64,000 bases of DNA, from positions 124,001 to 188,000 of the forward strand of contig NC_015474.1 of NCBI RefSeq assembly GCF_000211475.1. Direction: 5' to 3'. This document shows, in pieces, positions 20,590 to 50,470 of this stretch. The notes under the pieces are model-generated. The model did not search any database. It was not told the origin of the DNA and worked only from the letters and a program-made list of their open reading frames with translations. The DNA is from Pyrococcus sp. NA2. GTDB lineage: Archaea; Methanobacteriota_B; Thermococci; Thermococcales; Thermococcaceae. Positions within the stretch are counted from its first letter, which is position 1. Each line of letters opens with the position of its first letter. The translations under genes and the position numbers were made by a program.

Positions 20590-21345
20590 ATGAAGTTTGG
20601 CATAGTTGGAAACCTAACGATAGATGTTATAAATGGAGATAAAAGGCCCGGTGGAGGAGCCTATTATTCGGGTTTAGTGCTCTCCAAATTTGGGAAGGTG
20701 GTTATATATACAAAGATCGGAGAAGATTATCCCAGGAAATGGTTAGAGGAGATTGAGAATTTTGCCGAAGTTGTTAAGTTCAAAGCTAAGTCAACAACTA
20801 AGTTCGCTCTCCATTACAAAAACGGAGAGAGAACGATAAAGGTTCTCTCCAAGGGAGAGATGTTCAGCAGAGATGAACTGGAAAGCATAAGTGAAAGAAA
20901 CATCATAATAAATCCAGTTGCAAATGAACTAAGCCCTGAAGATGTAGAGATATTTAAAAAACCTTCTCTAGATGTCCAGGGATTCATTAGGGAGCTTAGA
21001 GACAAAGTTGAACTAAAAGAAATTGATGGTAGCTTTTTATCAAAGGCCTTCGTTGTCCATGCATCTCTAGAAGAGTATTTAAAGATTAGAAATCCGGGAA
21101 AGCCAGATGTCTTTGCCATAACAAATGGTGCGAAGGAGGGAAGGCTAATAACAAGAGAGGGAGAGCTCAAATTTAAGCCAAGACCAGTAAGCACGAATGA
21201 TCCCACTGGTGCTGGAGACTGCTTCTTGGCACTACTGACTTATGGCATTCTTAAGTTTGGAATTAGAGACGGACTTGAATTTGCTCTCAGAGAGACCGAA
21301 AAATTCCTAAGCCTTGGATTAAAGAGATATATCGAATTGCGATGA
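20590..21345 (+). CDS. PfkB-family sugar or nucleoside kinase
   Basis: Ribokinase-like fold: GNLTIDV and RPGGGAYYSG near the N-terminus and the PfkB signature DPTGAGDCF near residue 208, whose aspartate is the catalytic base. At 251 residues it is shorter than ribokinase, as for several archaeal members. The substrate is not identifiable; candidates include nucleosides and sugar alcohols. The start codon lies about 25 bases from a shared TATA element with no ribosome site, so the message is probably leaderless. The stop codon TGA is part of the C box of a guide RNA. Confidence 0.85.
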   Translation: MKFGIVGNLTIDVINGDKRPGGGAYYSGLVLSKFGKVVIYTKIGEDYPRKWLEEIENFAEVVKFKAKSTTKFALHYKNGERTIKVLSKGEMFSRDELESISERNIIINPVANELSPEDVEIFKKPSLDVQGFIRELRDKVELKEIDGSFLSKAFVVHASLEEYLKIRNPGKPDVFAITNGAKEGRLITREGELKFKPRPVSTNDPTGAGDCFLALLTYGILKFGIRDGLEFALRETEKFLSLGLKRYIELR

Positions 21346-21394
21346 TGAAGCCTCGATTGGCTGAATCGATGATGAAGAGGGACTTAGCCGAGCG
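21339..21394 (+). ncRNA. Box C/D guide sRNA overlapping the PfkB gene stop
   Basis: All four boxes are in order with archaeal spacing: C ATGATGA 21342-21348, 12-nt guide, D' CTGA 21361-21364, 4-nt spacer, C' ATGATGA 21369-21375, 12-nt guide, D CCGA 21388-21391. GC (21339-21340) and GC (21392-21393) close a short terminal stem, extended by G.U pairs. Such RNAs direct 2'-O-methylation by fibrillarin, Nop5 and L7Ae. The C box includes the TGA stop of the PfkB gene, and the RNA ends about 10 bases before the Nudix start. Confidence 0.85.
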
Positions 21395-31024: not shown

Positions 31025-31082
31025 AGGCAATGAGGAAAATTTCGCTAGCTGAGAGATGATGAATACCCTCGCGGCCGAGCCT
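31025..31082 (+). ncRNA. Box C/D guide sRNA with predicted 23S rRNA target
   Basis: Stem AAAGGC (31023-31028)/GCCTTT (31079-31084) encloses C ATGAGGA 31030-31036 (one variant base), 12-nt guide, D' CTGA 31049-31052, 3-nt spacer, C' ATGATGA 31056-31062, 12-nt guide, D CCGA 31075-31078. TTTTAAAG about 25 bases upstream could be its TATA box. The D' guide AATTTCGCTA is complementary to TAGCGAAATT, which I recall as the universally conserved helix 71 region of 23S rRNA; the N+5 rule would place 2'-O-methylation on its C. Runs opposite to both flanking genes. Confidence 0.82.
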
Positions 31083-33108: not shown

Positions 33109-33167
33109 GCCCTCAGAGGGAAGTCGGTCATCACCTCTCAGCTCACTCCACTTCCAATCATCGGGCC
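33109..33167 (-). ncRNA. Box C/D guide sRNA at the 3' end of the antiporter gene
   Basis: On the minus strand: terminal stem GCCC/GGGC, C box core GATGA (33158-33162, whose TGA is the antiporter stop), guide, D' CTGA (33138-33141), 3-nt spacer, perfect C' GTGATGA (33128-33134), 11-nt guide, D CTGA (33113-33116), then T5. The terminal C box is imperfect (CC in place of RT). The D guide CCGACTTCCCT is complementary to AGGGAAGTCGG, which I recall as a strongly conserved large-subunit rRNA segment. Confidence 0.72.
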
Positions 33168-39376: not shown

Positions 39377-42190
39377 TCAACCCTTAGCAACACCTATCGG
39401 TCTCATCCTGGCGACCAGCTTTGCTATCCCTGCCTCACTCACAACTTTGACTACATTATCAACGTTCTTGTAAGCTCCTGGAGCCTCCTCAGCTACAACC
39501 CTCATGCTTGCAGCTCTAACGTAGATTCCTCTGTTTAGGAGCTCCTGTCTAATCCTATCTCCTCTGTATTGCCTAGTTGCAGCTTTCCTACTGAGAACTC
39601 TTCCAGCTCCATGGCACGTTGAACCAAAGGTCTCCCTCATTGCTCCCTCAGTTCCAGCCAAAACGTAACTTGCCGTACCCATGCTCCCAGGAATCAGAAC
39701 CGGCTGGCCAACGTCCCTGTATATCTTTGGAACTGCTTCATGTCCAGGTGGGAATGCTCTAGTTGCACCCTTCCTGTGGACTATAACCTTAACCTTCTTT
39801 CCATTCACTTCATGTTCCTCAACTTTTCCTATATTGTGAGCAACATCATAGACTATGTCCATTCCAAGATCTCCTTCAGGATCCTGCCTAAATACCTCCT
39901 GGAAGCTCTCTCTCACCCAGTGGGTTATCATCTGTCTGTTAGCCCATGCAAAGTTTGCAGCAGCCTTCATTGCACTGAAATACTTTTGACCTTCCTCGCT
40001 CTCAAAGGGAACGCTAACCAATTCTCTATCTGGCCAGGGAATCCTGTACTTTCTAATCGCCCTCTCCATGATTCTTAGGTAATCACTTGCAACTTGATGA
40101 CCAAGTCCCCTTGAACCCGTGTGGACCATGACAACTACTTGACCTTCAAATAGGCCATAAGCCTTTGCTATCTCCTCATCATAAACCTTGTCAACAACCT
40201 GAACCTCAAGGAAGTGATTTCCTGAACCAAGAGATCCCAATTGTGGAGCTCCTCTCTGCTTTGCTCTTTGACTTACTGCATCTGGATCAGCACCCTCCAT
40301 TCTACCCCCTTCTTCAAGCCTTTCAAGGTCTCTCTCCCATCCATAGCCGTTATCAACTGCCCACTTTGCACCATCCACCAGAACGTCATCTATCTGAGTC
40401 CAGCGAAGCTTAATTCTACCCTCGCTACCCACACCACTCGGAACGTTCTTGAATAGCGTATCAACGAGTTGCTTGATCTTTGGTCTGACCTCCTTCTCGG
40501 TGAGGTTGGTTCTAATAAGCCTGACGCCACAGTTGTGGACGACGATGCCGTTGGCTATGAAGTTGTGGGCCTCGTGGTAGACGCCGATGTCGTAGAATTT
40601 AGTGTAGCTTGGCCTAACCCTCTCGACCTTAACGACCCTCTCTGCAACAAAGCCGCCTTCGTAGCCCCTCTCTCTGGCGAACTCCTCAAAGGTCGGGAAA
40701 TCCTTTGGAACCCTTGGCTCTCTGTAACCATCGTGGATGCTCCCGGTTCTCTCGTACACTTCAATTGCCTTCTCTATGGCCTTCCTGTGTTCATCCCTAA
40801 CGCGCTCCTTGAGCTTGAGGTAGGCAGCTGCGATTAAGCCCTTGGCCTTCTTCTCAAGATCGTACTCGTAGTTTATTCTCTCAACGAAGGTCTTAATGCT
40901 CTCCTCGCCCACTATCGAGAGTCTGTAAGTTACTCCTTTCCCTGACTTGACCTCGTAAATGGTCGTCTTTATGCCGAACTCAGCGAGAAGCTTTGCAACG
41001 TCACCAAAGAACTCGATGAGGCTTTCGGAAAGTTCCTCGTCCTTCGAGTGAGTGAGGTTTATCGGGAGCGGGGTGTTGCCCTTGAACTCCACTATACTTC
41101 CATCGGCCGCGAAGAGTCCTGCCAAGAAGTTTCTCTTAACCCAGAGGGGAGCCTCCATTATCCATTTGGGAACGCAGTAGGCTTTTTCGGTCTTCTTGCC
41201 CCTCGGCATTCCAAGCTTTTCGAGGAGTAGCGCGAAGCTTCTCGACGTAACCCTGAGTTCCGCAGAGACGCTCTTACCCTCATAGCCGATGCTGTAGTCC
41301 TGCTCGTGGACGTAGAGGCTTGCACTTATTCCAAGCTTCTCAAGGTCTTTTTTGAGCTCCTTAAGCGTCTCCTCCTTCCCGTAGAAAGCAAGAGTCAGCC
41401 TTCCGGCCATCTCGTCCAGATGTCCATTCCCAAAGGCAAAGCCAAGTATTCTCGCTATCGTTCCAATCTTCGGATCATCCCAGCGAAGCGGAATCAGGTT
41501 TTTCTCGCTGAGGAACTTCAGAACCTGGGGATCTTCGCCCTCGAATGCTTTCTCATCGAGGATAACGCCCTGTCTCTCCTCGTACTCCACGCCCTCGAAG
41601 GGATAAACTATCACCAGGTCCCCTTCCTTGATGTTCCCAAGGTAAACGTATCCCTGGGGCGTCAGAACTGGGTGATCCTCGCTGCCCTCTATGACCTTCC
41701 CGCTCTCCGTCACTATCCTCACGGCCATTTCGTTCTCTTCAACCTCTCTCTCGGCTACGAAGGCTATCTTCGAGGCGTCGTTGTGCCCCTCGTCGAGGTT
41801 GTAGACCTTGACTCCTTGGAGCTTGAACTTCTCGGGCAGTTCCTCAATTTTAATCCAGTAGCCATGTTCCGTTAGAACTCTTGAGCCAGGGGCAAGGCAG
41901 TTAATGTCGTATCCTATTCCTCCAGGACTTATGACACCCTCTTTAACATCAAAGGCCGCAACACCACCGATTGGAAAACCATATCCCTGGTGACCATCGG
42001 GCATGACTATTGAATATTTGTATATTCCTGGAAGCATTGCAACATTAGCAGCTTGCTCTAAGGTTCTATCACTCTTCATTTTTTCAAGAAGAACATCATC
42101 AGCATAAACTCTCCCTGGTACTCTCATTCTTTTGTCAAACTTTGGAATCTCCCACCTTATCTTATCTATCCTTTTTAGCGGGACTGTCAT
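39377..42190 (-). CDS. rtcB: RNA-splicing ligase RtcB, interrupted by an intein
   Basis: RtcB joins 2',3'-cyclic-phosphate and 5'-OH RNA ends in tRNA splicing using GTP and manganese. The precursor is 937 residues: N-extein 1-97 ending GGIGYDIN, intein 98-553, and C-extein from Cys554 (CGVRLIRT). The spliced protein is 481 residues, the normal Pyrococcus size. Cys554 becomes Cys98, the manganese-binding active-site cysteine, so the enzyme is inactive until splicing. Other active-site motifs are [17 protein letters not shown] and, near the end, RAASMRVV. A palindromic TATA (CTTTTAAAAG) lies near 42222-42231. Confidence 0.95.
40532..41899 (-). mobile_element. Intein with LAGLIDADG homing endonuclease in rtcB
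   Basis: 456 residues beginning [14 protein letters not shown] (splicing block A, Cys1) and ending [12 protein letters not shown] (blocks F/G, terminal His-Asn) before the +1 cysteine. Block B is visible as [12 protein letters not shown]. Two dodecapeptide motifs mark a homing endonuclease: [12 protein letters not shown] and [12 protein letters not shown]. The sampled intein lines are GC-richer (48-58% in the three I counted) than the extein lines (37-43% in two), consistent with separate ancestry. Confidence 0.93.
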
Positions 42191-44427: not shown

Positions 44428-44449
44428 CGAAAAGGAAATAAGCAGACAA

Positions 44450-44459
44450 TCATATATAC
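44450..44459 (+). promoter_or_regulatory. TATA-like element before the GC-rich element
   Basis: TCATATATAC lies just upstream of the GC-rich stretch. At normal spacing it would start a transcript near 44480, within the structured region. Confidence 0.4.
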
Positions 44460-44461
44460 TA

Positions 44462-44550
44462 TCGCCCGACGAGTATCAGGGTTGCGATGACGTCGGGACC
44501 CCCAGGGGGCCGACAGTTCTAATGGCCCCCAAAACTTTTTAACCCCGCCG
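44462..44550 (+). ncRNA. GC-rich structured element, candidate noncoding RNA
   Basis: A GC island in AT-rich intergenic DNA, the classic sign of structured RNA in hyperthermophiles. Hairpins: CCCGACG/CGTCGGG (44464-44470/44491-44497); GGGGGCC/GGCCCCC (44505-44511/44524-44530), followed by AAAACTTTTT; and a competing GTCGG-CCCC/GGGG-CCGAC hairpin (44492-44514) that excludes both. An ACA follows CCG at 44512-44514, so an H/ACA guide RNA is possible, but I cannot build a normal pseudouridylation pocket. It could also be a switching leader for the next gene. Strand is assumed. Confidence 0.5.
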
Positions 44551-44564
44551 GCGGTTCTTTTTTC

Positions 44565-45347
44565 ATGCTTGATTCTATCATAGAAGAGATAAAGAGTTTT
44601 GCAGAGAAGGCTAAGCTAAATCAGGAAAAGATACTTGTCCTTTTTTCAGGAGGAAAAGATAGCTCACTAACGTTGTATCTTTTAAAACGTGCAGGTTTAG
44701 ATGTTGCAGCTCTAACATTCTTCCATCGATGGAGCTGGCCCGAGGTGGTTAAATGGGGCATGAGATTCACAAAGGAACTTGGAGTTGAGCACTATCTCGT
44801 GGACATTACGGAGAGTCTACTTAAGAAAGCCGTTGGAAGGAAGGGACCAATATGCATCCACTGTAAAAAGGTAATGCTCTGGAACGCTAAGTGGTTTGCA
44901 CTCAACAATGGATTCTCAATACTCGCAAAAGGAGACAACGCGAACGATAAGATAGTTGGAACGTTATTAGATCAATGTCCAGGGGACATAAGACTCTGCG
45001 AGATTCCAAAGATCGGAATCCCGATATTTAGGCCATTAATAAAATACAAAGCTACTATGGTAGAAAAATTAGCTGAAGAAGCTGGAATAAGACCTTATAG
45101 GATGTATGAACATGGAAGAAGAAAACAATGGCGAGAAGGTTGTCCTCTTCAATACATAGATGAAGAAGAGAGGATAACTCCAGAGCTTATGGAACTTGCA
45201 TACAAAGTGAATTACGAAGTTAGTAAGATTGCTAGAAAGAGAAAGATCAGGATCAGCGTCAGAGTGCCAAGCTTCGAGATAATGTGCTGGAATTGCGACA
45301 AGAAAACAATTGAAGAAGTTAAGAGAATTGTGCAGGAATTTCAGTAA
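44565..45347 (+). CDS. PP-loop superfamily ATPase (TtuA/TtcA-like)
   Basis: FSGGKDSSL (residues 27-35) is the ATP-binding PP-loop. Cysteine pairs CIHCKK, a CPLQYID segment and a late CWNCDKK could bind Fe-S or zinc, as in tRNA thiolases. The family resembles archaeal PP-loop proteins of COG1365 type; the exact substrate is unknown. The start codon is preceded by CCGCCGGCGG and a T-run; TTTTTAAC about 25-30 bases upstream may give a leaderless message. Overlaps pdaD tail to tail by 7 bases. Confidence 0.8.
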   Translation: MLDSIIEEIKSFAEKAKLNQEKILVLFSGGKDSSLTLYLLKRAGLDVAALTFFHRWSWPEVVKWGMRFTKELGVEHYLVDITESLLKKAVGRKGPICIHCKKVMLWNAKWFALNNGFSILAKGDNANDKIVGTLLDQCPGDIRLCEIPKIGIPIFRPLIKYKATMVEKLAEEAGIRPYRMYEHGRRKQWREGCPLQYIDEEERITPELMELAYKVNYEVSKIARKRKIRISVRVPSFEIMCWNCDKKTIEEVKRIVQEFQ

Positions 45348-50402: not shown

Positions 50403-50470
50403 GCGGGCTTATGATGAGCTTTCCCTACGGCCCGAGCTCATGCGATGAGGAATACAGCCAGGGCTGATTT
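50403..50470 (+). ncRNA. Box C/D guide sRNA in the leader of the metallophosphoesterase gene
   Basis: C ATGATGA 50411-50417, 14-nt guide, D' CCGA 50432-50435, C' GCGATGA 50442-50448, 15-nt guide, D CTGA 50464-50467. GC-rich in an AT-rich gap, with a TATA box about 27 bases upstream. No clear terminal stem is seen and the D'-C' spacer (6 nt) is longer than in the other three RNAs. The D box ends 5 bases before the ATG of the next gene and its GGGCTGAT may also serve as ribosome site. Confidence 0.68.

Follow-up and report, generated by a model that had tools for sequence, protein, structure and literature searches.

The GC-rich element at 44464–44531 of the window, the 64,000-nt stretch of Pyrococcus sp. 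NA2 DNA analyzed here, is probably the gene for sRk28, a free-standing small noncoding RNA (ncRNA) of ~70 nt. This degree of confidence applies to the reading as a whole, namely a two-hairpin RNA with its own promoter that acts in trans and has no leader role. The RNA is already known from P. abyssi (Phok et al., 2011) and T. kodakarensis (Jager et al., 2014), and the window carries its orthologue. In P. abyssi, sRk28 lies between PAB1991 and PAB1992 at 527697–527833, with a 5′-end at 527798 by primer extension (Table 1), Northern sizes of 70 and 100 nt, and growth-phase regulation (Phok et al., 2011, PMC3124441). Others have shown that it is present in growing cells and scarcely in stationary cells. 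Phok et al. found no promoter for it, suggested dependence on the upstream gene, and described it as 5′-UTR-derived and preQ1-riboswitch-like (PMC3124441). In T. kodakarensis it is an orphan, growth-phase-regulated transcript in a different context, and the gene downstream is transcribed separately (Jager et al., 2014, PMC4247193). The features considered below are as follows.

44430–44441, + strand: predicted BRE/TATA promoter of sRk28, aaaagg-aaataa (aaaaggaaataa), at about −34 to −23, from 75 aligned loci.
44464–44531, + strand: sRk28 core RNA of 68 nt, the published ~70-nt form, from the covariance-model match and the P. abyssi start at 527798.
44464–44563, + strand: putative longer form of sRk28 (100 nt, ending with the T6 run), from the published Northern sizes (70/100) and the distance from +1 to the T6 end.
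44465–44497, + strand: hairpin 1, CCCGACG (44465–44471) with CGTCGGG (44491–44497); 98.5–99.3% of cells paired, one pair being compensatory (CG/GC/UA) in 19 sequences.
44472–44490, + strand: apical loop, with near-invariant AGTA (44472–44475) and GGGTTGCGATGA (44479–44490), conserved in 64 distinct sequences.
44492–44514, + strand: middle hairpin of the preliminary description, not conserved; two pairs broken in 36/64 and 19/64 relatives, no covariation.
44498–44504, + strand: linker ACCCCCA, near-invariant and single-stranded; its ACCC could pair with loop GGGT as a pseudoknot or an alternative hairpin.
44505–44530, + strand: hairpin 2, GGGGGCC (44505–44511) with GGCCCCC (44524–44530); 99.6% of cells paired, one pair flipping GC/CG in 28/66.
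44535–44542, + strand: CTTTTTAA, likely the TATA box of a leaderless PP-loop gene (~22-nt spacing to the ATG); its T-run may end the short RNA.
44565–45347, + strand: PP-loop ATPase gene, not QueC (24 bits against TIGR00364 QueC, cut-off 150).

A covariance model built on 64 distinct sequences matched genome G004, which we take to be P. abyssi GE5, at 527730–527798 (− strand), and BLAST gave a match there too. Because the start of this match, 527798, equals the published 5′-end of sRk28, the element is identified with that RNA. The window and the P. abyssi and T. kodakarensis sRk28 share their locus, 5′-end, size and hairpins and have the same neighbours at genus level; the published RNA, however, was described as promoterless and riboswitch-like, whereas here a promoter is predicted in 75/75 loci and the riboswitch reading is unsupported. 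Rfam searches at the gathering cut-off and at E up to 10 returned nothing relevant to the element, and no conserved open frame was found through it. In the window, the stretch from the predicted +1 through the last T of the T6 run ahead of the PP-loop ATG measures exactly 100 nt, and from start and T-run spacing we predict sRk28 sizes of 68–77 and 100 nt in this species.

A DNA search locates sRk28 as a single copy in 75 of the 94 Thermococcaceae genomes. All six genera are represented, and among the 74 genomes of good quality 65 carry it; the covariance-model search adds one decayed copy to this set. The model found none in 21 other genomes of the phylum, and viral contigs, plasmids and phage collections gave no match. 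Across the 64 distinct sequences 39 columns are fully invariant, which denotes strong constraint on the primary sequence. The loop motifs vary only by a single G>A in GGGTTGCGATGA and a single A>T in AGTA.

Pairing is conserved as well. In the MAFFT alignment 98.2% of the cells pair, compared with 93.7% in shuffles, with 46 double changes (figures that include four pseudoknot pairs); in the model-fitted alignment, which leans towards structure, the value is 99.0%. There, the covarying pair of hairpin 1 is CG in 46, GC in 17 and UA in 2 sequences, and that of hairpin 2 is GC in 35 and CG in 28. Of 200 dinucleotide shuffles of the 68-nt core, 199 fold less well than the core itself (z of −2.5), but the folding of the wider interval is unremarkable (z of −1.1, 27/200 shuffles), so that the real evidence lies in conservation and not in folding energy. 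The GGGU:ACCC contact is 100% pairable, its changes (3 sequences) being one-sided only and compatible; it is possibly the published pseudoknot. A kink-turn reading of the AGUA/GAUGA loop was rejected, since sheared G-A pairs, judged by hand, do not fit.

A preliminary description of this DNA had drawn the two outer hairpins, had named covariance across Thermococcales as a check, and had allowed a stronger middle hairpin to replace both. The outer hairpins are present where it placed them and are conserved, with compensatory changes in both stems (19 and 28 sequences). These changes, together with the transcripts published for P. abyssi and T. kodakarensis, bear out a conserved, structured and transcribed ncRNA. 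The middle hairpin did not survive the comparison: although this genome allows it to be drawn, two of its pairs fail in many relatives with no compensatory change, and its predicted probability is ~0 at 37–85 °C and 0.03 at 95 °C.

As judged from sequence, all 75 sRk28 copies have a predicted standard archaeal BRE/TATA promoter of their own. With the loci aligned on the RNA start, A is found at −33 in 67/75 and at −32 in 56/75, positions −28 to −23 are A/T-rich, A is found at −10 in 68/75, and the initiator has a pyrimidine at −1 and G at +1 in 75/75. In 51 loci a divergent gene, whose ~166-aa product matches no Pfam family, lies just upstream of sRk28, followed by c1 and usually by queE (named here from its protein sequence and not by family search), which occurs in 49 Thermococcaceae loci overall. 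A single symmetric TTATAA at ~−27 of sRk28, with no separate box nearer the divergent gene, is found in 40 of these 51 loci, and two separate boxes with longer spacing in 8. TTATAA was present in the sRk28 promoter of 40/51 loci with the divergent gene vs. 5/24 without it (Fisher p 3e-6, although the loci are related by descent and this is not an independent-sample test). We infer that one TTATAA box drives both sRk28 and the divergent gene; the shared arrangement in 40 genomes is new here.

Clean deletions of sRk28 were observed in G055 and G046, and foreign sequence where the RNA is expected in G079 and G084; in G075 the divergent gene has only a hairpin 2 remnant next to it, and G059 has a diverged copy that retains the 12-nt loop and a TATA-like box. 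No sRk28 was found in G078, presumably the T. sibiricus genome. In the T. sibiricus group the RNA has been lost, and Phok et al. had already noted its absence from T. sibiricus (PMC3124441). Since sRk28 has been lost in several lineages, it is not essential: it is useful but dispensable. The TTATAA box persists in G055, G075, G079 and G084 despite the absence of the RNA, and in G084 (locus L112) an IS607-type resolvase-like reading frame occupies the expected site beside the divergent gene. A repeated inverted sequence, ACAAACTTCGCCTGCGCGAAGTTTGATCAAGG, lies downstream of sRk28 in several Thermococcus genomes (L014–L029).

The PP-loop gene is next to sRk28 only in Pyrococcus (8/8 loci), and the QueC of the genome is encoded elsewhere (173 bits). 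In other lineages the downstream gene is L37Ae, TopA (topoisomerase), DUF357, HTH-CBS, cupin, DUF2284 or another, and at locus L011 sRk28 is inverted in place with unchanged flanks. Nine PP-loop homologues of at least 70% identity in other Thermococcaceae (Thermococcus loci L031–L039) have no sRk28 nearby. The many different neighbours, the predicted promoter of its own and the absence of the RNA upstream of the Thermococcus PP-loop homologues together argue that sRk28 does not serve the PP-loop gene as leader or switch, and the switch-like leader considered in the preliminary description is abandoned on these grounds. The T-runs that it listed are present, at 44536–44540 and 44558–44563. A T-run like CTTTTTAA lies just 5′ of the PP-loop start codon in 8/8 Pyrococcus loci, and AAAACTTTTT fits either a T-run or the TATA box of the gene that follows. 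The segment before this start codon (44536–44563, CTTTTTAACCCCGCCGGCGGTTCTTTTTTC) is nearly identical in the 8 Pyrococcus loci; it may be both the sRk28 terminator and the promoter of a leaderless mRNA. Elsewhere in the window, an RtcB-like RNA ligase frame of 937 aa (39377–42190, − strand) has, as read from its translation, an intein-like insert that begins after 'YDINC', the ligase resuming at 'VHNCGVR'.

In the proposed mode of action, BRE, TATA and initiator would set the sRk28 start at 44464, giving a compact transcript of two conserved hairpins and a C-rich linker; the 100-nt species would arise where transcription reads on to the T6 run ahead of the PP-loop ATG. The RNA would be no leader of the neighbouring gene. 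It most likely acts in trans, a conclusion held with fair confidence, with the loop GGGU presumably folded against the linker ACCC. It may be bound by a protein, and/or exposed ACCCCCA and GGGUUGCGAUGA may contact a partner. With so much of the sequence conserved, a protein or tertiary partner seems more likely than one short antisense site.

Contacts between the C-rich linker and mRNAs are also conceivable, and one form that trans action might take is a base-pairing regulator in which ACCCCCA, with or without the loop, covers G-rich ribosome-binding sites on mRNAs, as C-rich bacterial sRNAs do. The linker hardly varies and is unpaired in the conserved fold, sRk28 is growth-phase regulated (PMC3124441), and there is an archaeal precedent in the trans-acting sRNA162 of M. 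mazei (PMC3510493). We nevertheless consider this form rather unlikely: no conserved target was found, conservation spans the whole loop and linker, beyond the needs of a short seed, and the loop may already occupy the linker. A search of the 94 genomes for the exact complement of the 12-nt loop revealed no conserved second site; the extra matches were sporadic and mostly in genes, and those inspected were gene-internal or chance-looking, except the sRk28-like copy in G059. Less probable still is a heat-dependent, two-state RNA that exchanges hairpin 1 for a GGGUU-CGA/UCG-GACCC hairpin near growth temperature. GGGUU and GACCC are pairable in all sequences, and from 37 to 95 °C the mean predicted probability over 75 sequences falls from 0.77 to 0.18 for hairpin 1 and rises from 0.20 to 0.48 for GGGU:ACCC pairing; energies at 95 °C, however, are extrapolated and unreliable, and ions and proteins are ignored. 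The competitor hairpin gains ground in the predictions at 85–95 °C; it shows no compensatory change, and one of its pairs is broken in 17 sequences.

The riboswitch and guide readings fare worse than trans action by an independent sRk28. The 2011 proposal, which would make sRk28 a preQ1-type riboswitch acting in cis from the 5′-UTR of the PP-loop (QueC-like) gene, is very improbable. Like preQ1 riboswitch classes I–III it is a small RNA with a possible H-type pseudoknot, which can indeed be drawn; it lies directly upstream of the PP-loop gene in 8/8 Pyrococcus loci, and in 49 loci queE lies past the divergent gene. Unlike these classes, it has no preQ1 covariance-model match in Rfam (E up to 10), no conserved cis linkage to a preQ gene, and transcription of its own: the PP-loop protein is not QueC, which is encoded elsewhere, other genes lie downstream in most genomes, PP-loop homologues occur without sRk28, and the RNA has its predicted promoter and is an orphan transcript in T. 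kodakarensis (PMC4247193). A 5′-UTR location at a gene of preQ biosynthesis or transport was not found, as the downstream genes vary and the PP-loop gene is not QueC. By genomic context, the published riboswitch label of sRk28 does not hold. A modification guide of the H/ACA or C/D type is scarcely credible. Archaeal guides (Hgc, sR families) are likewise GC-rich, stable RNAs in an AT-rich hyperthermophile genome, and they are common in these genomes, four C/D box sRNAs lying within the window (sR20, 21338–21393; sR39, 31026–31080; sR58, 33111–33165; sR19, 50407–50469). Unlike them, sRk28 is without the boxes, the pocket and complementarity to rRNA. It matches no Rfam family; RUGAUGA is found in 0/75 copies and CUGA in only 3/75; the conserved fold has no internal-loop pseudouridylation pocket, and ACA follows the stem in only 28/75. 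Its best rRNA duplex, 13 bp with G-U, falls within the shuffle range of 10–14. The preliminary description could not fit the element to H/ACA or C/D RNAs, and the missing boxes and pocket confirm that; the guide RNA that it nonetheless entertained finds neither rRNA complementarity above chance nor an H/ACA or C/D signature.

For the independent, trans-acting sRk28 we tentatively propose a wider arrangement: (i) the RNA may share one symmetric TATA box with a divergent operon (166-aa protein, c1 and queE); (ii) this one promoter element would set the output of both the RNA and a gene group next to archaeosine precursor synthesis; and (iii) the RNA would move between intergenic sites with its own promoter and would have been lost several times. 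As 40 loci have the promoter box in common with a gene near queE, some connection with 7-deazaguanine metabolism is conceivable.

In Thermococcales, sRk28 is an orphan RNA under strong conservation, and it has stood in the literature under a riboswitch label unsupported by its genomic context. Without this label, and given the mapped promoter, the covariance model and the lineages that lack it, sRk28 becomes a testable trans-acting archaeal RNA, in a genus (that of T. kodakarensis) with working genetics.
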